A stretch of DNA of 64,000 bases from Stenotrophobium rhamnosiphilum (lineage in GTDB: Bacteria > Pseudomonadota > Gammaproteobacteria > Nevskiales > Nevskiaceae). Below, piece after piece: positions 28,752 to 41,224 of the stretch (the stretch's first letter is position 1; each line of letters opens with the position of its first letter). The DNA lies in assembly GCF_003052265.1 (NCBI RefSeq), contig NZ_QANS01000003.1:372001-436000 (forward strand). Direction: 5' to 3'. The notes below the pieces were generated by a model. That model worked only from the letters and a program-made list of their open reading frames with translations, did no database searches and was not told the DNA's origin. Made by a program: the position numbers and the translations under genes.

Positions 28752-30218
28752 TTATTTAACCGCGCGGAGTGAGGCTTTCTTACGGGGTGCGGCGGCTTTT
28801 TCAATAGCGCGTTGCTTCAGTATGCCAATGCATTCATCAAACGTACGTGAGATGCGCGTTTGATTGCGGATGCGATCAATCTTCGACCACGTCGCGCGGT
28901 CGCCGTCGCGGATGAAGCGCTGAATCTCATCATCCGTGAGGTTGGAGAACATATTGAGCAACTGCTTGGGCGTGTGACGCGGAAAAATATTGACGTCGCC
29001 GCTGTATTTCTGGCGCGTCACATTGTCGAGCTTGTTGATGATGCGACCGGCGCCGTAAGGATCCATATGCGTGCGTGCGAGCGTGAGCGCGCCGCGGCTG
29101 CCGGAGCTAGCGAGTTCGCGTGCCAGCGGAATCAGGCCGCGCTTAGGCGCAACGTCTGACATGAACGGCACAATGTGTGGATTGGTTTGGCTGACGATGT
29201 AGTGATTGCAGTTGTGCAGGCGCGCGAGGCGAAGCATCGGCAGATCGTTGGCAAGGCTGCCATCAACCCAACGTTTGCTTGGCATATACGGAACAACGCG
29301 GCCGAGATAATCGTGCGCTTCCAACATCACCGGTGGGAACACGCCGGGAACGGCGCAAGACGCCAGAATCGCGCGACGCAGCAACACATGCGGCGCAGCC
29401 AAGTAATTGAGCAGACGACCTTGCTGATGTGGGTCAGCTGGTGAAACGGTGATGCCGATGATGCGACGCGTGCGCTCAAAGGCCTGCGTGAAGCTGATCT
29501 CGCCGACGTTTTCAGCAAGGCAACGCTCAAGCTGACCGCCGTCCATCACCGCACCGCCTTTGAAAATATTGCGCAGGCTGACGCTCTGGAAGGCGCGCAG
29601 ATTCAGCCCGCCCGGTTCAAACACGCGGCCCAGTTCAGCATCGGTGCGCGAGCCCACCACGCCAGCAATGATGGAACCGGCGCTGGAACCCGAGATGACT
29701 TTGGGCAGCAGATTGCGCTCGTGCAGCGCTTTGATCACGCCGAGGTGAAACATGCCCAGCGTTGCGCCGCCGGACAGCATCAGCGCCGAGCGACCAAAAA
29801 CGGTGCCGGTACGCTTAAAGAAGATGATCTTTTCGTCTTCCGGAAAGTCCGGAAAATCGCCGATGCAGAGGTAGTCGAGGCAGCGCGCGACTTCTTCAAC
29901 GTATTGTTCGATCAGGAGTTTGGTGCCAACGCGGGCCACACCGTAGAGGGCCGGATTGGTGATGTTGCCGATGTTGCCGTGCAGGCCTTCATACAGATTG
30001 AACACCAACTGACGAACATCGCCACCTTTGCGCAGGGCGCGCATTTCGGCGAGGCGTTCTTTGATCAGAAGGTAGTCGTAGTCGTCGCTGGTGTCGTCCT
30101 GTTTCCAGGCGGCGGCACCCTCAAGGGTGTCCAGTTCGACGGCAATTTCGCGCCATTCCTTATAGTCGGCGGCCTGCTCGAGGTCGCGTTGACGGGTGAC
30201 AATAAGCTTGTTGGACAT
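28752..30218 (-). CDS. Patatin-like phospholipase with DUF3336 N-terminus
   Basis: From the ATG chosen (an in-frame ATG 12 bases upstream is less likely) the protein has 488 residues. The N-terminal DUF3336 region (about 8-140) precedes a patatin domain: oxyanion loop LSGGATLGMFHLG, nucleophile Ser179 in GSSAG, and DG dyad in WVDGSLAND. The same domain order occurs in yeast triacylglycerol lipases Tgl3-5 and bacterial homologues that act on membrane phospholipids or storage lipids. There is no signal peptide. It diverges from mprF across a 224-bp gap, suggesting lipid-related roles on both sides. Confidence 0.88.
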   Translation of the reverse strand: MSNKLIVTRQRDLEQAADYKEWREIAVELDTLEGAAAWKQDDTSDDYDYLLIKERLAEMRALRKGGDVRQLVFNLYEGLHGNIGNITNPALYGVARVGTKLLIEQYVEEVARCLDYLCIGDFPDFPEDEKIIFFKRTGTVFGRSALMLSGGATLGMFHLGVIKALHERNLLPKVISGSSAGSIIAGVVGSRTDAELGRVFEPGGLNLRAFQSVSLRNIFKGGAVMDGGQLERCLAENVGEISFTQAFERTRRIIGITVSPADPHQQGRLLNYLAAPHVLLRRAILASCAVPGVFPPVMLEAHDYLGRVVPYMPSKRWVDGSLANDLPMLRLARLHNCNHYIVSQTNPHIVPFMSDVAPKRGLIPLARELASSGSRGALTLARTHMDPYGAGRIINKLDNVTRQKYSGDVNIFPRHTPKQLLNMFSNLTDDEIQRFIRDGDRATWSKIDRIRNQTRISRTFDECIGILKQRAIEKAAAPRKKASLRAVK

Positions 30219-30230
30219 CAATAAGGGCAC

Positions 30231-30454: not shown

Positions 30455-33013
30455 ATGATCGCTCTGATTCAACGCTATAAAGCCTGGCTGATGCCGGCCG
30501 TGACGCTGCTGATTTTCAGCGTGGCTGCGCTTGTGCTGCAGCGCAGCTTGTCGCATCTGCGGTGGGCAGATGTTGTGGAAGAACTAGCGCGCACTCCATT
30601 ACAAAATATCTGGCTGGCCTCGCTATGCGCGGTGGGCAGTTACGCGATGTTGACGATGTACGACCTGCTGTCGCTACGCATCATCGGCAAAAAATTACCG
30701 CTATGGCGGGTAATCGAAACTTCATTTACTGCGTACGCCGTTGGGCATAGCGTGGGACTGTCGTCGATCTCCGGCGGTTCAGTGCGTCTGCGTCAATATT
30801 CAGCTGATGGACTCAAGGCGATGGAAATCGCTGCGGTCATTGCGCTGTGTTCGTTGACCTTCACGCTGGGCGTGTCGACCTTATTAGGTTTGTCGCTGCT
30901 GCTTGAAGGCGAACAGGCTCAGACCGTTCTGCATATCCAATTGCCCGTCGCACATTGGCTCGGCGGCTTGGTGTTGTGTGTTGTGGCGATTTATTTATTG
31001 ATCACTGCAGTGCGGCAACGTCCGCTGACGATCAGTGGCCAAGCATTCAAATTGCCTTCGTTTCATTTCAGCGCAGCGCAGCTCATCACCAGTTGTATTG
31101 ATTTGAGTTTCGCCGCCGCCGCGCTCTACTTTTTATTGCCGGATCAACTTGGTCTGAGCTTCCCGGCATTCGTCGGCATTTATGTATTGGCGCTTGCAGC
31201 AGGTGTGGCCAGCAATGTGCCGGGCGGCCTCGGTGTTTTCGAAGGCGTGCTGTTGCTGATGTTGCCTGATGTGCCCAACGACAAATTGCTTGGCGCAGTG
31301 CTGCTCTATCGCCTGATCTATTACATCGTGCCTTTCATGCTCGGCATGGCTTTGTTGTTGTGGGGAGAGTGGGAAGTACAGAGCAAGCGTTTGGAAGAGC
31401 CATTCCGCGTGGCCAAACGCTGGATCGAATTTTTGCTGCCAGAAGTGTTGTCCGTGTTGGTGTTCTTGGCAGGCGCAGTGTTGTTGCTCTCAGGCAGCTT
31501 GCCCGCGATTGGAAAGCGCATGGACTGGCTCGCCGACCTGCTGCCGCTGGGCGTCGTTGAACTCTCACATCTTGCCGGTAGCGCAGTCGGTGTCGGCCTG
31601 ATGATTCTCGCGCGCGGTCTTTATCGCCGTTTGGATGGTGCGTGGTGGTTGACGCAAGTTCTGATCGTCGCCGGTATTTTCGCGCAGCTTCTTAAAGGTG
31701 TGGATTACGAAGAAGCGCTGCTGCTGTTTGTGATCGGATTAATGTTGTGGGCCTCACGTGCACGCTTTTATCGACGCGCACCTTTGCTGGCGCAACGGTT
31801 TTCCCCGTGGTGGTTTATCAACGTCGCCTTAGTCCTGGGCGCGGCGATCTGGTTAGGCGTGGTGGCTTACAAGAACGTTAGCTACGCCAACCATCTATGG
31901 TGGGACTTCGCATTCGAAGCCGACGCGCCACGCATGCTGCGCGCCACCTTGCTCGCAGTCTTTATCGCATCAATTTTCGCGATGATGCAGTTGCTCGGCG
32001 CTTCACGCCCGCGCGCAGATTTGCCTTCTGCTGAAGATTTGGAAAAGGCGAGTGCCTGTCTGGCAAAAAGCAGCGAGACGATGGCGAACCTTGCTTTGCT
32101 CGGCGATAAGCAATTCTTGTTCTGCGATGAGGGCGACGCTTTCATCATGTATCAGCGCGGCAATCGATCTTGGATCGCGCTCGGTGATCCGGTCGGCAAT
32201 CCTGATCGGTTCGAAAATTTGGCTTGGCGCTTTAGAGAAATGTGCGACAAGCATGGCGGTCGTCCGGTGTTCTACGAAGTCAGCGCCGCGCAACTGCCTT
32301 TGTATCTCGATTTAGGGTTGTCGCTCGTTAAACTCGGCGAAGAAGCCCGCGTGCCACTCGCAAACTTTGGCCTCGAAGGTTCCAAGCGCGCCGAATTGCG
32401 CCAAGCCAAACGCAAAGCGGAGCAACGCGATGGTTTGAGCTTCCGCATTCTGCAGCCAGCAGAAGTTCCAACGCACATCGAGCAATTGCGCTTGATTTCA
32501 GACGATTGGCTCATCGCCAAGTCTGTCGCAGAGAAGGGTTTTTCTGTCGGCAACTTTGAGCCTGAGTATTTGTGCCGCTTCCCGATTGCGGTCGCAGAAA
32601 AAGACGGCGCTATCGTCGCGTTTGCGAATCTCTGGCGTACCGCGAATGAAGTCTCAGTTGATCTGATGCGTTATGGCAGCACTGCCCCGCGCGGCGTGAT
32701 GGATTATCTGTTTGTGGAAATGATGCTGTGGGGCCGCGCCAATAATTTTCAGTGGTTCAATCTGGGCATGGCGCCACTCTCTGGTTTGGAAAAACATCCA
32801 TTGGCACCGCTGTGGCACAAGCTGGGCTTGTTGGTGCATCGTTACGGCGAACCGTTCTACAACTTTGATGGTCTTCGTCGTTACAAAGAAAAATTTGATC
32901 CGGTTTGGCGTCCGCGTTATCTGGCATCGCCAGGTGGCTTGGCGCTGCCAAGAATATTATTGGATACGGCCTCGCTGATTGCGGGCGGTATGAAAGAGGT
33001 GGTTTTCAAATGA
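30455..33013 (+). CDS. mprF: Bifunctional lysylphosphatidylglycerol synthetase/flippase MprF
   Basis: The product has 852 residues. The N-terminal half has about 12-14 membrane helices of the flippase domain with the conserved GHSVGLSSISGGSVRLRQY stretch and NVPGGLGVFEGV. The C-terminal soluble domain (about 530-850, DUF2156/GNAT-like) has FLFCDEGDAFIMYQ, GDPVG and WFNLGMAPLSGL. It transfers an aminoacyl group, usually Lys, from tRNA to phosphatidylglycerol and flips the product to the outer leaflet, reducing surface negative charge and sensitivity to cationic peptides. Its stop overlaps the start of the VirJ-like gene. The amino acid specificity is not known. Confidence 0.93.
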   Translation: MIALIQRYKAWLMPAVTLLIFSVAALVLQRSLSHLRWADVVEELARTPLQNIWLASLCAVGSYAMLTMYDLLSLRIIGKKLPLWRVIETSFTAYAVGHSVGLSSISGGSVRLRQYSADGLKAMEIAAVIALCSLTFTLGVSTLLGLSLLLEGEQAQTVLHIQLPVAHWLGGLVLCVVAIYLLITAVRQRPLTISGQAFKLPSFHFSAAQLITSCIDLSFAAAALYFLLPDQLGLSFPAFVGIYVLALAAGVASNVPGGLGVFEGVLLLMLPDVPNDKLLGAVLLYRLIYYIVPFMLGMALLLWGEWEVQSKRLEEPFRVAKRWIEFLLPEVLSVLVFLAGAVLLLSGSLPAIGKRMDWLADLLPLGVVELSHLAGSAVGVGLMILARGLYRRLDGAWWLTQVLIVAGIFAQLLKGVDYEEALLLFVIGLMLWASRARFYRRAPLLAQRFSPWWFINVALVLGAAIWLGVVAYKNVSYANHLWWDFAFEADAPRMLRATLLAVFIASIFAMMQLLGASRPRADLPSAEDLEKASACLAKSSETMANLALLGDKQFLFCDEGDAFIMYQRGNRSWIALGDPVGNPDRFENLAWRFREMCDKHGGRPVFYEVSAAQLPLYLDLGLSLVKLGEEARVPLANFGLEGSKRAELRQAKRKAEQRDGLSFRILQPAEVPTHIEQLRLISDDWLIAKSVAEKGFSVGNFEPEYLCRFPIAVAEKDGAIVAFANLWRTANEVSVDLMRYGSTAPRGVMDYLFVEMMLWGRANNFQWFNLGMAPLSGLEKHPLAPLWHKLGLLVHRYGEPFYNFDGLRRYKEKFDPVWRPRYLASPGGLALPRILLDTASLIAGGMKEVVFK

Positions 33014-34407
33014 AACAACTCATCGCATTGCTGTTGGTATTGGTGGCCGGCTCTGCTCAAGCACGCGACGTGCTCTCGCATGGCCGCTTCGACAAGATCA
33101 CCATGTATCAGCCCAAGGGCACGCCGACGAGCTTCGTTATCTTTCTGTCCGGAGATGCAGGCTGGAATGGCAACGTGATCAACATGGCCAAGGCGCTGAC
33201 AGAGAAAGGTGCCTTGGTTGCAGCCGTTGATACACCCGCGCTGTTACGCAATTTCAAGAAAGATGGCGGCGATTGTTTTTCACCTGTTGGTGATTTGGAA
33301 AACCTCAGCCATTTCTTGCAGGCCTATTACAAACTCGGCGATTACTACCGCCCGATTATTGTCGGCTATGACGTTGGTGCAACACTCGCTTACGGTACTG
33401 CGGGATTAGCACCTGACAAACTGTTTGGCGGTGTCATGGCGCTGAGCTTCAACCCAGAGTTGGCATTCAAGAAGTCACTGTGCAAAGGCGATGGCTTTAA
33501 ATTTGAACTGCAGAAGAATGCACAGGGCAAGGTCAAGAGTTCGGTGCTTTATCCAACGCAGCGAATCAAAGCGCCATTCGTTGTATTGCAGGGCGAGGTC
33601 GATCCTAAATATCCATCATCGGCCGTTCAGATTTTCACGAGCACGGTGACCAATGGCCGCGTGGTGATGTTGCCTAACGTCGGTCGCTACTACGGACACG
33701 AGAAAGATTGGAAGCCGAAGTTCCTCGAAAATTATCAAACCATTGTTGCGAGCAATAAGGCTTCATCACCGCCGCCACCGCCAACATCACTCGGCAATTT
33801 GCCGGTGGTTGAAGTGCCATCGCAGGGCAAGGAAACCGACACCTTCGCGATTCTCATTTCTGGCGACGGTGGCTGGGCAGGCTTAGATAAAGAAGTTGCT
33901 GCAGCGCTGACAGCCAAAGGCGTCAGAGTAGTTGGCGTAGATTCACTGCGTTACTTCTGGGCCGCGCGCACGCCAGCAAGTACGGCCGCAGATACGGATC
34001 GCATCATTCATTACTACGCATCGAAATGGAAAAAGAAGCGCGTCATTCTGATTGGCTATTCGCAAGGTGCGAACGTGATGCCTTTCATCGTCACGCGTTT
34101 GTCCAAACCATCGCTTGAATACGTCAGCTTGGCTGTTGGCATGGGCTTGAGTGAATTCGCAACGTTTGAATTCCATCTGAGCAACTGGGTTTCAAACGGC
34201 AAAGAAGGCTTACCTACCTTGCCTGAAGTGGCCAGAATGCGCGGCATTCCGTTCCTGTGCATTTACGGTACGGGTGAAGACGACACGATTTGTCCCAAGC
34301 TACTAAGCACGCCAAGCGCGCGTGTAGTGAAGTTGCCGGGCGGGCATCACTTCGACGGCAATTACAAATTGCTTGCTGAAGAAATTTTGAAAGCAATGCC
34401 ACGCTGA
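33010..34407 (+). CDS. VirJ/AcvB-like periplasmic lysyl-PG hydrolase
   Basis: The product has 465 residues with a signal peptide (about 1-18, GSAQA). It has two tandem halves. The N-terminal half (about 25-250) has the hydrolase-like SGDAGWNG, but where the nucleophile should be it reads GYDVGA (Asp121), so it looks non-catalytic. After a Pro linker (252-258) the VirJ domain (about 265-465) has SGDGGWAGLD, nucleophile Ser351 in GYSQGANVMP, an acidic GTGEDDTICP and His near PGGHHFDG. In Agrobacterium, AcvB hydrolyses lysyl-phosphatidylglycerol and is encoded with lpiA, an mprF homologue. The four-base overlap with mprF strongly supports that pairing here. Confidence 0.88.
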   Translation: MKQLIALLLVLVAGSAQARDVLSHGRFDKITMYQPKGTPTSFVIFLSGDAGWNGNVINMAKALTEKGALVAAVDTPALLRNFKKDGGDCFSPVGDLENLSHFLQAYYKLGDYYRPIIVGYDVGATLAYGTAGLAPDKLFGGVMALSFNPELAFKKSLCKGDGFKFELQKNAQGKVKSSVLYPTQRIKAPFVVLQGEVDPKYPSSAVQIFTSTVTNGRVVMLPNVGRYYGHEKDWKPKFLENYQTIVASNKASSPPPPPTSLGNLPVVEVPSQGKETDTFAILISGDGGWAGLDKEVAAALTAKGVRVVGVDSLRYFWAARTPASTAADTDRIIHYYASKWKKKRVILIGYSQGANVMPFIVTRLSKPSLEYVSLAVGMGLSEFATFEFHLSNWVSNGKEGLPTLPEVARMRGIPFLCIYGTGEDDTICPKLLSTPSARVVKLPGGHHFDGNYKLLAEEILKAMPR

Positions 34408-34409
34408 GT

Positions 34410-34913
34410 TTGCACGTGGAGTTGTTAACCATCCTCTACGTCATCCTCGCCGTCGGCTTGGTGTTGGGTGGTTTGCTCGGCGCGATTTATCCGCTATTGC
34501 CTGGACCGCCGTTGGTGTTTGCAGGTCTTTGGCTCGGCGCATATGCCGATCAATATCAGCACGCAGGATTTAAAACGCTGGTGGTGATCGCCGTGCTCGG
34601 TGGAATCGGCATGCTGCTGGATTTTGTTGCAGCGAGTTTCGGCGCCAAGCGTGTAGGCGCTAGTCCGCAAGCGATAACCGGTGCATTTCTCGGCACGCTA
34701 GTCGGACTGTTCTTTGGAATTCCCGGGCTGATCTTCGGGCCCTTCGTCGGCGCTGTGCTCGGCGAGTTGTATGCGCAACGCTCAATCAATCAAGCTGCTG
34801 CTTCTGGGCTTGGCACGTGGCTGGGTTTGCTATTGGGCACTATTGCGAAGCTGGTGCTGTCGTTCATGATGATCGGCGTGTTTGCTTTGGCCTGGATTCT
34901 CAGCATTGCTTGA
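34410..34913 (+). CDS. DUF456-family small membrane protein
   Basis: The product has about 167 residues with four or five membrane helices and Gly-rich repeats (LGGLLGAIYPLLPGPPLVFAG, FFGIPGLIFGPFVGAVLGE). The PLLPGPP motif is the DUF456 signature. The start is uncertain: TTG at 34410 or GTG at 34416 in the same frame; both are weak. It directly follows the VirJ-like gene and is probably part of the mprF transcript. Function unknown; context suggests membrane-lipid homeostasis. Its last 84 bases overlap the 3' end of the convergent phosphoethanolamine transferase gene. Confidence 0.8.
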   Translation: MHVELLTILYVILAVGLVLGGLLGAIYPLLPGPPLVFAGLWLGAYADQYQHAGFKTLVVIAVLGGIGMLLDFVAASFGAKRVGASPQAITGAFLGTLVGLFFGIPGLIFGPFVGAVLGELYAQRSINQAAASGLGTWLGLLLGTIAKLVLSFMMIGVFALAWILSIA

Positions 34914-36551
34914 GAGCACTAAATTGCGCGCAAAGGCCGAGGGCTCGTAGGGCTTGTGGCCGATGTAGCGTGTCCGTGCAACGAAGTCAGGACCGAGTAA
35001 ATCAAGCTGAGGCTGATCCTTGCTCGTCTCGATGTGTGCGAGATCCAGTAGCGTCCAATCGAGCACATCGGTTTGGAATGGGCGCTGCTCAAGTTTGAAC
35101 TTCATGGCTGGATCCATTGGCTGCGACTTCCAAACAATCAACGGCACGGTGACGCCAGCTTCGCTGAGCGAATGTCCAGCAAAGTCACGCGTGTGGCCCA
35201 CTTCCTCTGCATGATCGGGCGTGTATAGGAAAGCACCAGAAGCATTGCCAACATCGGCTTTAAAGCTATCCAGAAGGCGCGCGATGATGGTGTCCTGATA
35301 AAGGATGGCGTTGTCGTAGCTATTGCGCATCATGCGCACCCACAGAGAGCGGCCGTCCTTGCGCATTTTTTCCATCGTTGCATCGTCGACGTCGGAGAAG
35401 CGATGGAACGCTGGAGGCGAGCGCAGGTCGTAGTGCGCGTGCGCGCCGAGCAGGTGGACGAAGATCATCTTGCGAGGAGCGGGATCTTTTAATGCTGCGT
35501 CCCAGTAAGGCAAAACGTCTTCGTCGAGTTTGCGGTCGCTGCGACCGCCGCCGGTGTTGGTGATATTCACCGAGTCGGCTTCTTCGGCATAACGCGAATT
35601 AATGAAACGATCGTGCTGGTTGGAGATCCAGAAAGTTTTGTAGCCAGCCGCTTTGGCGAGCATGACAACGCTGGGCTCGGCCTCGTCATCAACTTTGCTG
35701 CCAATCACAGCCGGCGTCAGCATCAGTCGGAACGAACCGACAGTGCCAGCGGCGCCGGAGATCACGTCGCGGAATACCAGCGCGTCCTTCGTTTCGTGCA
35801 TCAGCTCCGGTGTTGTGGCGCGCGGATAGCCGTATAGCTGCCAGTTCCAACGGTTGGTACTTTCACCAATCACTACAGCGATCGTGTGTTGTTTTGGGCC
35901 GTCATAAACCGGCGCCCACATGGGGAGCTTTTGCTCAGCGAGCCGACGCTTGATATGTAGTTGGCCAAGCTGATTGTGGAAGCGCTGATAGCTCACCGCT
36001 TGCGTCGGCCAAAAGAAGATCGGATTGGCCCCGCGGAATGTTGGATTGGCATGCAGGCCGACAAAGATGACGAGCAATCCAATCGCCCAGCCAGCCTTAT
36101 GTCGCTGAAGCACTTCAGTGTTGGGACGCAGCCATACCAGCAGTCCCAGCAACAAGGTCGTTGCGAGCAGATGACCCAAGAGCATCGATCCATACTGCTG
36201 TATGAATTCGAAAGTCTCTTCACTGTTGGTGTTGCTGATCGCGTCGACGACGATCAGCGTATCGGGATCAGTGCCGTAGAAGTTTGAGAGGAACGCTTTG
36301 ACGCCGGTGTGAACAGCGAACAGGGTGATCCATGCGAAATAGGCGATGCGTTGGGTTCGACCCTGCAGCAGTCGGCATAAGGGATAACTGCCCAAGGCAA
36401 AAACCAGACCGGCCTTGAGCGTTTCGCGCCAGCTGACATCAAGCGCTGCATAGGCGATCAGCAGGATGCAGGTGCTGACCACGATGCCATAGCGTTGAGC
36501 CGCCCACGACTGGGCACGCGACGAGATTGTCGCAACGGCCGACGTATTCAT
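34830..36551 (-). CDS. Phosphoethanolamine transferase, CptA/EptC type
   Basis: The product has 573 residues: five N-terminal membrane helices (about 1-165) and a periplasmic sulfatase/alkaline-phosphatase-fold domain. The nucleophile region reads VIGESTNRWNWQLYGYPRATTPEL (catalytic Thr in the GEST motif), with metal-site motifs YKTFWISNQ, FVHLLGAHAHYDLR and TPDHAEEVG. It moves phosphoethanolamine from phosphatidylethanolamine to lipid A or core sugars; the sequence is closer to CptA/EptC than to EptA by motif. It should neutralise surface phosphates and so complements the mprF neighbour. It is convergent with and overlaps DUF456. Confidence 0.88.
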   Translation of the reverse strand: MNTSAVATISSRAQSWAAQRYGIVVSTCILLIAYAALDVSWRETLKAGLVFALGSYPLCRLLQGRTQRIAYFAWITLFAVHTGVKAFLSNFYGTDPDTLIVVDAISNTNSEETFEFIQQYGSMLLGHLLATTLLLGLLVWLRPNTEVLQRHKAGWAIGLLVIFVGLHANPTFRGANPIFFWPTQAVSYQRFHNQLGQLHIKRRLAEQKLPMWAPVYDGPKQHTIAVVIGESTNRWNWQLYGYPRATTPELMHETKDALVFRDVISGAAGTVGSFRLMLTPAVIGSKVDDEAEPSVVMLAKAAGYKTFWISNQHDRFINSRYAEEADSVNITNTGGGRSDRKLDEDVLPYWDAALKDPAPRKMIFVHLLGAHAHYDLRSPPAFHRFSDVDDATMEKMRKDGRSLWVRMMRNSYDNAILYQDTIIARLLDSFKADVGNASGAFLYTPDHAEEVGHTRDFAGHSLSEAGVTVPLIVWKSQPMDPAMKFKLEQRPFQTDVLDWTLLDLAHIETSKDQPQLDLLGPDFVARTRYIGHKPYEPSAFARNLVLSSNAENPGQSKHADHHERQHQLRNSAQ

Positions 36552-36758: not shown

Positions 36759-38813
36759 TCAAGTCGGTGGAATCTTCAGCTTCATGCCCGGCTTGATGTG
36801 ACTCGTTTGGTCGAGATCATTCACTTTGCGCAGGGACGCCACGCTGGTGTTGTAGCGCTTGGCGATACTGCTCAGGGTCTGGCCTGATTTCACTTTATGT
36901 ATCTGCAGTTTTGCCGACGCGGTTTTAGTTTTTGCCTTGCCTTTGGCGACCGATTTGGTCGATTTTGCCGCCTTGGTGGCTTCAGCCACCTCTGCACGCT
37001 TCTGCGCGCGGGTTTGCTGTGGCTTTGATTCGCCAACGGCGACCGTGATTGGGCCCGGACGCGATTCGGTATGGGCGGGCACTTTCAGAATCTGGCCGAC
37101 GCGCACATGGCGTTTTTTGCCAAGACCGTTGACCGAAGCAATCGCTGATTGGGTGACGCCATAGCGCTTGGCAATCTTGGCGATGTTGTCGCCGTTCTTC
37201 ACTTTGACCAACTGATAAATCGAGCGCTGCGAGTCAAAGCGTTCATTCGATGAAAGCTTCGAGTAGCCGACTTCAAAATTCTTGGCGCTACCTGAAGGCA
37301 CGCGGATCAAATGGCCGGGCGGCACATACATCTTGCCTTCGATCACTTCCGGACGATAAGCGGGATTGAGTTTGCGGAACACTTCGTCGTCAGCGCCACA
37401 GAGGCGACGCAGTGTTTCGTAAGGAACGTAGTGCTGCGTTTCCACCACATCAAAACGCATCATCTCGTTCTGACGTGAACGATCCTGACTGCGTACATAT
37501 TTGCGTTCGACATCCAGCGCAGCGAGAAATTCTGCGTAGTAGTTTTTAGAAGCAAAACCAAAGCGCGGACCATCGTAACGTTGAATGAGATCAACAATCG
37601 TGGTGCCGTTGACCGCGGTGCGTGCGCGCGAGATGCCGCCGCGGCCGTGGTTGTAAGCGGTGACGGCCAGCGGCCAATCGCCTAGCACTCTGTAATCGTC
37701 TTTGAGATGGCGTGCAGCGGCGTCAGTAGACGTCCACGGATCGCGACGATCGTCGACGATATTGTTGAGGCGCATGTAAATACGCGCTGACGATGGAATG
37801 AATTGCCACAGTCCAGCAGCGCCAGCTTTGGAGTAAGCCTCAACGTTGAAGCTCGATTCCACCAAGGGAATACGAGTCAGGCCGATCGGCAGATCATGGC
37901 TGCGGAAGGTTGCTTCCATCACCGGCAAATATTTGTTGGAGAGATCCAGCGCTTGAATCGTGCGTTCTTTCAGGCCGCGCTGTGAGCGCAGCGTGCCGAC
38001 GGCAGCGAGATAACGGTTGTCATCAGGAATGTCCGCGTACAAATCAAAGATGCGGCGTTGCTCGCTGTTCATCTGATCTGGCGTGTGGCGCAGCTCGTGC
38101 ACTTGCTTCAGCACGCTGTCGTAATGATCTTTGGTTTGTTTTACTTGCAGATCGCGCAGATTGTTCAGCGCTACTGCGTTCATGCGCGCAGCATCGCTGC
38201 GGAAATCCAGCACTTCAAAAACTTTCTGTGGGTACGCCATCGAATGGATCACGCTTTGGTTTTCGGAGTAATCACCGAAAACTTGGGTCCAAAACGCAAC
38301 CGCAGGCTTGAGTTGTGTATAACGTGGGAAGTACTGAGATTCTTTAGCCAGCGAGTCCAGTTTGGAAGCTGAAGGCAGGCGCGCCGTCTCGGGCGGTGGC
38401 GTCATTACCTCGGGCAGGCTCAACGCAGCTTCTGGAGCTGCTTTGATGTCGGCTTTGACTGTGGCTGCTGCAGGCGAGGTCAGCGCTGGTGTTGGCGTCA
38501 GCGCGGCAGGCACGGGCGCTGCGACGGCATCGGGAGCGGTGACAATGGCTTTTGCGGCGGGACTAGGCGCTGCCGAATTCGCCGGAACGATTGCTGGCGA
38601 CGTTTTGAGTGTCGGTGCAATGGCAGGCGTGGAGGAAATCGGTGTTGGTTTTACTGCAGTAGCAGGCGTTGCGTTGGCGTCTGCTGTGGGATTCGCAGCG
38701 ACTGGCTTGGGGTTTACGTTTGCGTTAGCGCGATCCTGCTGCGCAAATCCGGCGGTGCAAACTCCTAGGCCTAAAACGGCGGAAAGACCCAAACCACTGT
38801 ATTTCTTTAACAT
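36759..38813 (-). CDS. mltD: Membrane-bound lytic murein transglycosylase D-like protein
   Basis: The product has 684 residues; the second of two adjacent ATG codons has the better spacing from GGAAG. A signal peptide (about 1-25) is followed by about 120 residues rich in Ala, Pro and Thr. The SLT domain (about 290-420) has the catalytic Glu in LVESSFN and [18 protein letters not shown]. Then come a degenerate and two clear LysM modules (about 550-597 and 640-684, the latter ending MKLKIPP). It cleaves glycan strands to anhydromuropeptides in the periplasm. No lipobox Cys is obvious, unlike E. coli MltD. It stands alone. Confidence 0.9.
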
Positions 38814-38984
38814 CATCTACTTCCAAACCTCGAGCCACGAACATTTTGCAGCTCTAAATAGAGATGCTAGCGCAGCAACAATTTTATATCAATTGGCACA
38901 ATTGCCTACGCAGACGTAGAGACCGACGTAGAAATCATCGCCTAAACTTGGCGCCCCAAAAAATCTGACAGTGAAATCGCTGAC

Positions 38985-39929: not shown

Positions 39930-39974
39930 GTTGCGTAGCGCGGTTGCCCTCCTTGTGGTGCGCGATTAAACTGC

Positions 39975-40127
39975 ACGCGTCACTGGGGAGTAGCCGCCTG
40001 CCGTTTTGAGCAGGGAACGCATCAACATTCTTGACCTTCGGTCATGGTGCGTTCGGCAGTCATTACGATTGCGTCTGGCGAGACCATTGGCATGAGACCT
40101 GTCCCGGGCTGGGCGGGGTTTCGTGCC
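39975..40127 (+). ncRNA. yybP-ykoY (Mn2+) riboswitch upstream of the CaCA exchanger gene
   Basis: The leader carries family-conserved segments in order: GGGGAGTAG (39985-39993), the stem CCTGC/GCAGG (39997-40014), AACGCATCAACATTC (40017-40031), a stem AACGCA/TGCGTT (40017-40022 with 40048-40053) with nested hairpin TGACC/GGTCA, and GCGAGACCA (40079-40087). These match the Mn2+-sensing yybP-ykoY aptamer. Downstream, GGCATGAGACC (40089-40099) can pair with GGTTTCGTGCC (40117-40127), a candidate expression-platform stem. It precedes the exchanger start by about 90 bases. Recognition is by conserved sequence and order only. Confidence 0.8.
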
Positions 40128-40216
40128 TTTGGTTCAATCGCTGTCCGGCCCCGGTATCTCAATATGTCGACTCACACTTTTTGCATTTTTTCTTTCGCGT
40201 TTTTCCGGAGCGCGCC

Positions 40217-41224
40217 ATGATCTTGCTATGCGTTGAACTGGTTGTGATGTTGCTGGTGATTCTTGCCGCAGCAGAAATTTTCACCAATGCGCTGGAGCAT
40301 CTCGGTGAGCGGCTTGGTATTTCAGAAGGCGTCACTGGATCGTTATTCGCTGCTGTAGGCACAGCACTGCCCGAAACACTCGTGCCGATCATTGCGATCT
40401 ATGCAGGCACGCAGAACATGGAGCTCAATCACGATATCGGCGTTGGCGCCATTCTCGGTGCGCCGTTGATGTTGTCAACGCTATCGACTGCGTTGATGGC
40501 GATTTCCGTGCTGCGTCTGCGTGGCATTAAAGGGCGCATCGCGCCAGAACGCAGCGGCTTTGTGCGAGATTTAAATTTCTTCTTGTTCGCTTTCTTGATT
40601 GCTGCCGCCGCGATGTATGTGCCGACAGAGATGCGCGAAGCACGTATTGCGTTGAGTGCATCTTTAGTCGGTTTGTATCTCGCTTATATCGTCGTCACTG
40701 TTCGTGCTTCCAGCAGTTTGGTTGATGCAGGACACGGTACCGAAGCCGAAGAGCCGATCTTCCTGACCAAGTTTGGATTCAAAGAAAATCTCGGCACGAT
40801 TATTCTGCAATTGATACTCGCCGTACTGCTGCTGGTCGGCGGTGCCAAAGGATTTATCAATGGCATTGAAGGTGTTTCGACCGCGCTAGGAATTTCAGCG
40901 CTGGTACTTTCTTTGCTGATCATTCCCATCGCGACCGAGTTGCCAGAGAAGGTGAACAGCATCCTCTGGGTGCGACGCGGCAAAGACACATTGGCCTTTG
41001 GCAACATTACCGGCGCGATGGTTTTCCAAGGCACCTTGTTGCCAGCGTTGGGAATTTTAGTGACCCCTTGGACGCCGCGACCAGAAGTGCTTTCCGGCAT
41101 TGTGATCACGCTCGTCGCTGCGGCATGGCTGCGTCTAAACGCAACAGCGACTGGACCGCGCATTGCCGCCTTGTTGCTGAACGGCGGTTTGTATCTCTGC
41201 TATCTGGCTTACGTTTTGTTGTAA
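40217..41224 (+). CDS. CaCA-family cation antiporter under Mn2+ riboswitch control
   Basis: From the ATG with CCGGAG ahead, the product has 335 residues and about ten membrane helices. It carries the two inverted CaCA alpha repeats: AAVGTALPETLVPIIAI (about 52-68) and LIIPIATELPEKVNSI (about 233-248), whose Glu residues line the cation site. The family moves Ca2+, or in bacteria sometimes Mn2+, out of the cell against Na+ or H+. The riboswitch indicates that high Mn2+ turns the gene on, so Mn2+ export is the best guess. Short and repeat-complete for the group. The frame extends upstream through the riboswitch, but that part is not coding. Confidence 0.85.
   Translation: MILLCVELVVMLLVILAAAEIFTNALEHLGERLGISEGVTGSLFAAVGTALPETLVPIIAIYAGTQNMELNHDIGVGAILGAPLMLSTLSTALMAISVLRLRGIKGRIAPERSGFVRDLNFFLFAFLIAAAAMYVPTEMREARIALSASLVGLYLAYIVVTVRASSSLVDAGHGTEAEEPIFLTKFGFKENLGTIILQLILAVLLLVGGAKGFINGIEGVSTALGISALVLSLLIIPIATELPEKVNSILWVRRGKDTLAFGNITGAMVFQGTLLPALGILVTPWTPRPEVLSGIVITLVAAAWLRLNATATGPRIAALLLNGGLYLCYLAYVLL

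Follow-up and report, generated by a model that had tools for sequence, protein, structure and literature searches.

Why should a lipid hydrolase encoded next to a lipid synthase have two similar halves when only one of them carries a serine nucleophile, and which of the surrounding genes act together with it? The question is raised by a locus in a stretch of 64,000 nucleotides of Stenotrophobium rhamnosiphilum DNA (contig NZ_QANS01000003.1, positions 372,001 to 436,000), below called the window, to which all coordinates refer. The genes concerned are mprF, encoding a synthase and flippase of aminoacylated phosphatidylglycerol (PG), and virJ, encoding a hydrolase of the VirJ/AcvB family. The comparisons presented here make it likely that these form a two-gene operon for aminoacyl-PG turnover, that the N-terminal half of VirJ (N-half) is a second hydrolase head lost recently in this lineage, and that the adjacent genes for a DUF456 protein and a CptA-like transferase are neighbours. 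The pair comprises the following features:

30455..33013, forward strand: mprF/lpiA-like gene for a bifunctional aminoacyl-PG synthase and flippase, 852 residues (NF033480, PF09924, PF03706)
33010..34407, forward strand: virJ/acvB-like gene for a two-half alpha/beta hydrolase, 465 residues (PF06057, solved AcvB 9xhm)
33073..33765, forward strand: N-half of VirJ, about residues 22-252, probably decayed, with Asp121 (33370-33372) and Arg226 (33685-33687) (alignments, relative-rate tests)
33793..34404, forward strand: C-terminal half of VirJ (C-half), catalytic by homology, with Ser351 (34060-34062), His446/447, Asp286, Asn355 and Thr385 (alignment to AcvB, PMC13197417)

The mprF product contains both the flippase and the synthase Pfam domains and matches the NCBIfam model NF033480 (bifunc_MprF) at 941.5 bits, the cut-off being 600; the solved LpiA/MprF chains 7f47 and 6lvf match it over nearly the full length. 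In VirJ, the Pfam model PF06057 covers residues 277-463, that is, the C-half (232.6 bits, cut-off 22), while the solved AcvB structure 9xhm covers both halves (E 9.5e-54). The N-terminus of VirJ is hydrophobic, as judged by eye. An earlier sequence-only reading of the window had placed the virJ start over the mprF stop, Ser351 of the C-half in GYSQG and Asp121 of the N-half in GYDVG. All of this is borne out: the ATG of virJ at 33010 shares ATGA (33010-33013) with the TGA of mprF, and both motifs are as described.

The end of mprF adjoins the start of virJ in 68 of the 80 named loci; these are the top 80 among 508 confirmed relatives when ordered by how similar they are to the window. Among the other 12, ten have no mprF in the 3.0-6.0 kb upstream, one has it at 2.5 kb, and one is too short. 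The adjacency spans gamma- and betaproteobacteria, as well as records labelled Deltaproteobacteria, Elusimicrobia and Terriglobia. The proposal that the two genes make and break aminoacyl-PG is thus supported by their families, the overlap and the active-site residues, although we infer the activity and the lipids of this pair from its sequence. The pair is, however, not new to gammaproteobacteria. In Pseudomonas aeruginosa, PA0920 (ppgS) is an alanyl-PG synthase and PA0919 (ppgH) an alanyl-PG hydrolase (PMC7916210), and this likewise gammaproteobacterial pair was compared with ours by its description. Moreover, lpiA and acvB are stated to form an operon in various Gram-negative bacteria, and AcvB binds LpiA (PMC13197417). 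The LpiA-AcvB system of Agrobacterium tumefaciens (9xhm, 9xhn) has the same operon order, a two-half hydrolase, Ser and His in the C-half and an N-half lacking Ser. The mprF-virJ pair of the window is a further case of a known synthase/hydrolase pair. In Stagnimonas aquatica (L130, 2356-3198), mprF is immediately preceded by a second MprF-like stretch (45% identity to residues 7-286).

The two halves of VirJ are homologous, since a comparison of the profiles of N-halves with a complete triad and of C-halves of relatives is significant (probability 98%, E 1.8e-13) and aligns the nucleophile elbows. We call an N-half live if it has Ser-Asp-His at the triad positions, and dead otherwise. The window, with Asp121, Asp198 and Arg226, is dead, whereas its sister, the nearest named locus (L063, from a metagenome-assembled genome, MAG, of Nevskiaceae; 67% identity), keeps Ser-Asp-His and is live.

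For the N-half counts, copies identical over the last 350 letters were removed, leaving 105 of 118 VirJ proteins, 101 of them with two halves and four with one. The elbow Ser is found in the N-halves of 40 of the 101, and all 40 also have Asp198 and His226; both Asp and His are retained in 11 of the 61 two-half proteins without this Ser. Fisher's test gives p 2.5e-18 for the association, a value that ignores kinship and is not relied on. Because the named loci were selected for their likeness to the window, the figure of 40 of 101 does not give the frequency of live N-halves in nature. In more even draws of genomes, VirJ is present in 16 of 369 from the class and in 43 of 398 from the phylum (own genome included in each). 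From these we took 45 loci, leaving out the own genome, G062, and the phylum genomes G625, G632, G648, G705, G717, G734 and G737, which gave only weak or partial matches. Two halves are present in 42 of the 45, with no deduplication against the first set; L155, L156 and L186 are too short, the last being a single-half protein of 248 residues whose Ser at the aligned column was left uncounted. Three of the 42 are live (L147, L149, L184). Thus, live N-halves are common close to the window but form a minority in the wider draws. Over both samples, Ser, Asp and His occur together in all 43 two-half VirJs having the N-half Ser. Their usual motifs are VGYSSGAT, QGEIDQV and KVGHGF, and Rhodocyclus purpureus and Stagnimonas aquatica are among the organisms with a live-type N-half. 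In six further proteins (L072, L081, L082, L084, L148, L152) the N-half has Gly in place of Ser, with Asp and His still there; these are possible early stages of loss.

Thus, the sequence-only reading was right that the window's N-half has lost its nucleophile but not in treating this as a fixed feature, as relatives keep the full triad and the loss looks recent. Inactive N-domains have also been described before. That of AcvB folds as an alpha/beta hydrolase, but no activity has been detected for it (PMC13197417); in Brucella the triad is missing from the N-domain, which may be what remains of an ancestral hydrolase (PMC13135905). Both solved N-domains, that of AcvB and domain 1 (D1) of Brucella abortus VirJ (9rc4), carry Gly at the nucleophile place, in contrast to Asp in the window and to Ser-Asp-His in its sister. 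The remnant idea agrees with our sequences, which add that the ancestor's head seems to be alive in many extant members. We found no description of a catalytic VirJ/AcvB N-half in the literature searched; Arendt 2013 and Dugelay 2025 lay outside the search, so this is no proof of absence.

Live N-halves are conserved almost to the same degree as C-halves. In pairs of live proteins from six distance bins, identities of the N- and C-halves are 0.40/0.39, 0.47/0.47, 0.49/0.53, 0.58/0.64, 0.73/0.75 and 0.86/0.85, so that the N-half nearly matches the C-half in all bins, the largest shortfall being 0.58 vs 0.64. In dead pairs (0.24/0.37, 0.27/0.44, 0.39/0.54, 0.43/0.64, 0.56/0.74, 0.84/0.90), the N-half is clearly less conserved in five of the six. 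Such pairs are non-independent, and therefore relative rates are the direct test. With L019 as the outgroup, the N-half has accumulated 44 changes in the window and 9 in L063 (42 and 9 with the triad columns removed), the C-half 16 and 12. Over ten outgroups, 22-44 N-half changes are specific to the window and 6-11 to L063 (p 0.02 for L098, p<0.001 for the other nine), and for the C-half the same ten give no rate difference at 0.05. In 12 comparisons of dead with live proteins (triad columns removed, some partners shared), seven show a significant excess of changes in the dead N-half; the one with L148 also shows an excess in the C-half (p 0.037).

Other features of live N-halves point the same way. 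Asp271, Asp340 and Asp370 of AcvB matter for lysyl-PG hydrolysis (PMC13197417). The N-half equivalent of Asp271, position 49, holds Asp in 41 of the 44 rows that have the N-half Ser and in 46 of the 106 that do not (both totals count gaps and short rows), which hints at an amino-bearing substrate of the N-half. In the AlphaFold model of the sister VirJ (predicted local distance difference test score 93.6), Ser121 is placed between strand 116-120 and helix 122-133, Asp198 after strand 190-195 and His226 after strand 216-221. Among the solved folds listed, Brucella D1 comes closest to the N-half, aligning with residues ~15-250 of the model at Z 24.8; esterases align there at Z 18-21. This speaks to fold only and not to function. 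The Pfam serine-hydrolase model FSH1 matches residues 102-220 of the sister at 33.8 bits (cut-off 21). Because of the homology of the halves, the constraint and rates, Asp49 and the modelled placement of Ser-Asp-His, many relatives, the sister species included, probably possess a catalytic N-half.

To place the loss, we built a quick unrooted tree from the C-halves alone, in which 29 of 102 inner branches are well supported. The window and L063 are sisters (support 95) within a set of seven proteins, five of them live (support 97). The N-half Ser requires 11 changes on this tree, four of which are forced by well-supported branches. Since the triad occupies homologous places in both halves and the same motifs recur across distant groups, repeated loss seems more likely than repeated gain, although an unrooted tree cannot prove it. 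The window's N-half has probably lost Ser and His recently and would now be a non-catalytic domain. More generally, we lean slightly towards a family that was two-headed ancestrally, its N-head using Ser-Asp-His, with Asp49 possibly binding the amino group, to act on a second aminoacyl lipid or another ester; this head would have been switched off several times, and the window would show one such loss soon after the event.

Several observations weigh against our reading of the locus and its VirJ. Five of the 12 dead/live comparisons, which share partners, lack a significant acceleration of the N-half (L074, L078 and L089 v L070; L072 v L064, in which it is the live protein that changed more; L135 v L077). 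The Ser changes forced on the tree are only four, and four independent pairs cannot reach significance. The C-half of the window itself has Asn355 at the place of AcvB Asp340, and insertion of the mprF-virJ cassette into the locus discussed below is indistinguishable from its excision. Finally, the place of Asp340 is taken by Thr in live N-halves, and the N-domain of Agrobacterium AcvB is dispensable (PMC13135905), its removal slightly raising the activity (PMC13197417, PMC13135905). These last points would also suit a non-catalytic triad in the relatives, one retained because its residues help the protein to fold or to bind MprF or lipid. We regard this as doubtful: wherever the Ser is present, Asp and His accompany it, and the model places all three on an elbow and loops as in a serine esterase. 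N-halves that have lost the Ser are under weaker constraint, and the N-domains studied, those of AcvB and Brucella, are of the Ser-less type.

It is also unlikely that the window's N-half, rather than merely decaying, acquired an Asp nucleophile or a function in regulation or autoinhibition. Haloalkane dehalogenases do have Asp nucleophiles at this elbow, and the domain has kept its full length and its reading frame. Against this, the catalytic His is replaced by Arg226, and the excess changes extend beyond the triad columns. Autoinhibition as such has been proposed for AcvB (PMC13197417).

The C-half of the window is catalytic by homology to VirJ/AcvB enzymes, with Ser351 in GxSxG, His446/447 in GGHHF and, as the equivalent of AcvB Asp271, Asp286 in SGDGGW. 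AcvB Asp340 and Asp370 correspond to Asn355 and Thr385. Asn is unusual at the former column (Asp in 90, Asn in 10 and Glu in 5 of 105 VirJs), and the change of Asp340 to Ala lowers the activity of AcvB (PMC13197417). As both differ, the window's VirJ is not placed in the lysyl-PG-selective subgroup of AcvB proteins, which has Asp at both equivalents, and a preference for lysine is not predicted for it. In Pseudomonas homologues the Asp370 place is Thr or Ser, similar to Thr385 of the window, and their hosts produce alanyl-PG (PMC13197417). With Thr385 in place of the Asp through which AcvB acts on lysine, this MprF would more likely load a neutral amino acid, for instance alanine.

These same two substitutions could be taken to mean that the hydrolase acts on something other than aminoacyl-PG, as could the fact that six of seven live-type named loci without adjacent mprF show no mprF match in the 5.7-6.0 kb upstream. 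We hold this to be quite improbable, given the overlap with mprF here, the adjacency in most named loci and the retention of Ser, His and Asp286. For four live-type loci without adjacent mprF, some of the neighbours were listed or scanned; a subtilase and a DUF885 protein are among them, and no common gene was seen.

Variation of the C-half was noted elsewhere in the family. In L136 (5938-7329), from a single Syntrophaceae MAG, the situation is opposite to that of the window: the N-half keeps its triad, and the C-half nucleophile motif is GYLLG, with Leu for Ser. In L064 (2816-4477, 63.3 bits) and L088 (5929-7506, 52.4 bits), a short DUF3096 membrane tail is fused to the C-terminus of VirJ, and the alignment contains a similar tail in L011, L016, L030 and L031; the DUF3096 tail may tether the hydrolase to the membrane.

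The remaining question is which neighbours belong to the system. The pair is flanked by the following genes:

34410..34913, forward strand: DUF456 membrane protein, not counted in the system (PF04306, 124 bits)
34830..36551, reverse strand: CptA/EptA-like phosphoethanolamine transferase, not counted in the system (NCBIfam match below cut-off)
28752..30230, reverse strand: patatin-like phospholipase with DUF3336, left-hand backbone neighbour (Pfam; synteny)
36759..38816, reverse strand: LysM/SLT lytic transglycosylase, called MltD-like, right-hand backbone neighbour (PF01476, PF01464; synteny)

The position of DUF456 downstream of virJ and the convergent transferase were correctly described before. 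The DUF456 gene opens with TTG two bases past the virJ stop, though its true start is unsure, and the 3' end of the transferase gene, whose top NCBIfam match is at 224 bits (cut-off 404), overlaps it by 84 bp. The presence of these genes was surveyed in 100 genomes, the own one and 99 relatives, and VirJ was found in 51. DUF456 over the cut-off occurs without VirJ in 18 of 38 genomes, and VirJ without DUF456 over the cut-off in 31 of 51. They adjoin in 9 of the 20 genomes having both over the cut-offs (own included), and these 9 belong to three genera of one family. Solimonas fluminis, for instance, has DUF456 beside mprF-virJ. The survey of how often DUF456 follows the pair, suggested by the sequence-only reading, indicates that it does not travel with it: DUF456 lies within 2 of the 80 named and none of the 45 wider loci, searched with the window's DUF456 as the sole query. 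A few could be hidden, as the downstream stretch is below 3.5 kb in 13 of the 80 and below 150 bases in three of those.

The backbone also occurs empty. In 8 of the 29 DUF456 loci of relatives (L034-L062, of 38 DUF456 genomes), namely L037, L042, L043, L044, L049, L056, L057 and L062, patatin and DUF456 genes are direct divergent neighbours without mprF-virJ between them; the MltD-like gene then follows in seven, and five of the eight genomes have VirJ elsewhere. The filled order patatin-mprF-virJ-DUF456 is found in L063, L142, L188, L190 and L192 (L142 and L188 being from the same genome), and no patatin match was found within the stretch in L189, L191, L193 and L194. The window's CptA-like gene has no match in L063, L142 and L188-L194 (nine filled loci, eight genomes), and this transferase was rejected as a partner, as was DUF456, on synteny, as a third gene of the pair. 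In one genome (G032; L195 and L196), mprF-virJ and DUF456 share a contig at a distance of ~19 kb, which is intermediate between the filled and the empty arrangement. The cassette and the backbone are thus found separately, and in some loci DUF456 is accompanied by patatin and MltD only. Neither DUF456 nor the CptA-like gene is supported as a partner, and both appear as bystanders through the history of the locus.

No paper joining DUF456 with mprF was found in the literature search, and comparison of DUF456 with solved structures gave nothing better than E 0.18. YqgC of Bacillus subtilis, which shares the Pfam family of the window's DUF456, is cotranscribed with sodA and supports manganese efflux together with SodA, a link to manganese balance and not to aminoacyl-PG. 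Despite the 2-bp spacing and the nine adjoining cases, the distribution of the genes and the role of YqgC make it very unlikely that MprF, VirJ, DUF456 and the transferase jointly set the surface charge, as had been suggested. Further downstream in the window, a manganese riboswitch (RF00080, 71.6 bits; 39973-40146, forward strand) stands just 5' of a PF01699 gene of the sodium/calcium exchanger family (40214-41224, forward strand), which is likely a metal-controlled exporter.

For the two-gene operon, the following scheme can be drawn. MprF would load an amino acid onto PG and flip the lipid outward, as known for the family. The periplasmic VirJ/AcvB enzyme would then cleave the ester by Ser351 and His of its C-half, and the lipid level would be set by synthesis against removal, both steps being known for AcvB and PA0919 and presumed here. 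The N-half, as sequence and rates suggest, would be a second serine-hydrolase head of the same descent whose Ser and His were lost in the window lineage. The mprF-virJ cassette would have entered, or left, a patatin-DUF456-MltD backbone.

The comparison of loci removes DUF456 as a false lead to a third gene. If the family was indeed two-headed, the pseudo-enzyme N-domains that underlie present views of it would be products of repeated switch-off. If many members carry a live second head, a second activity in the turnover of envelope lipids may have been overlooked, and the question could be tested at once in the cultured strains Rhodocyclus purpureus DSM 168 and Stagnimonas aquatica THS-13.

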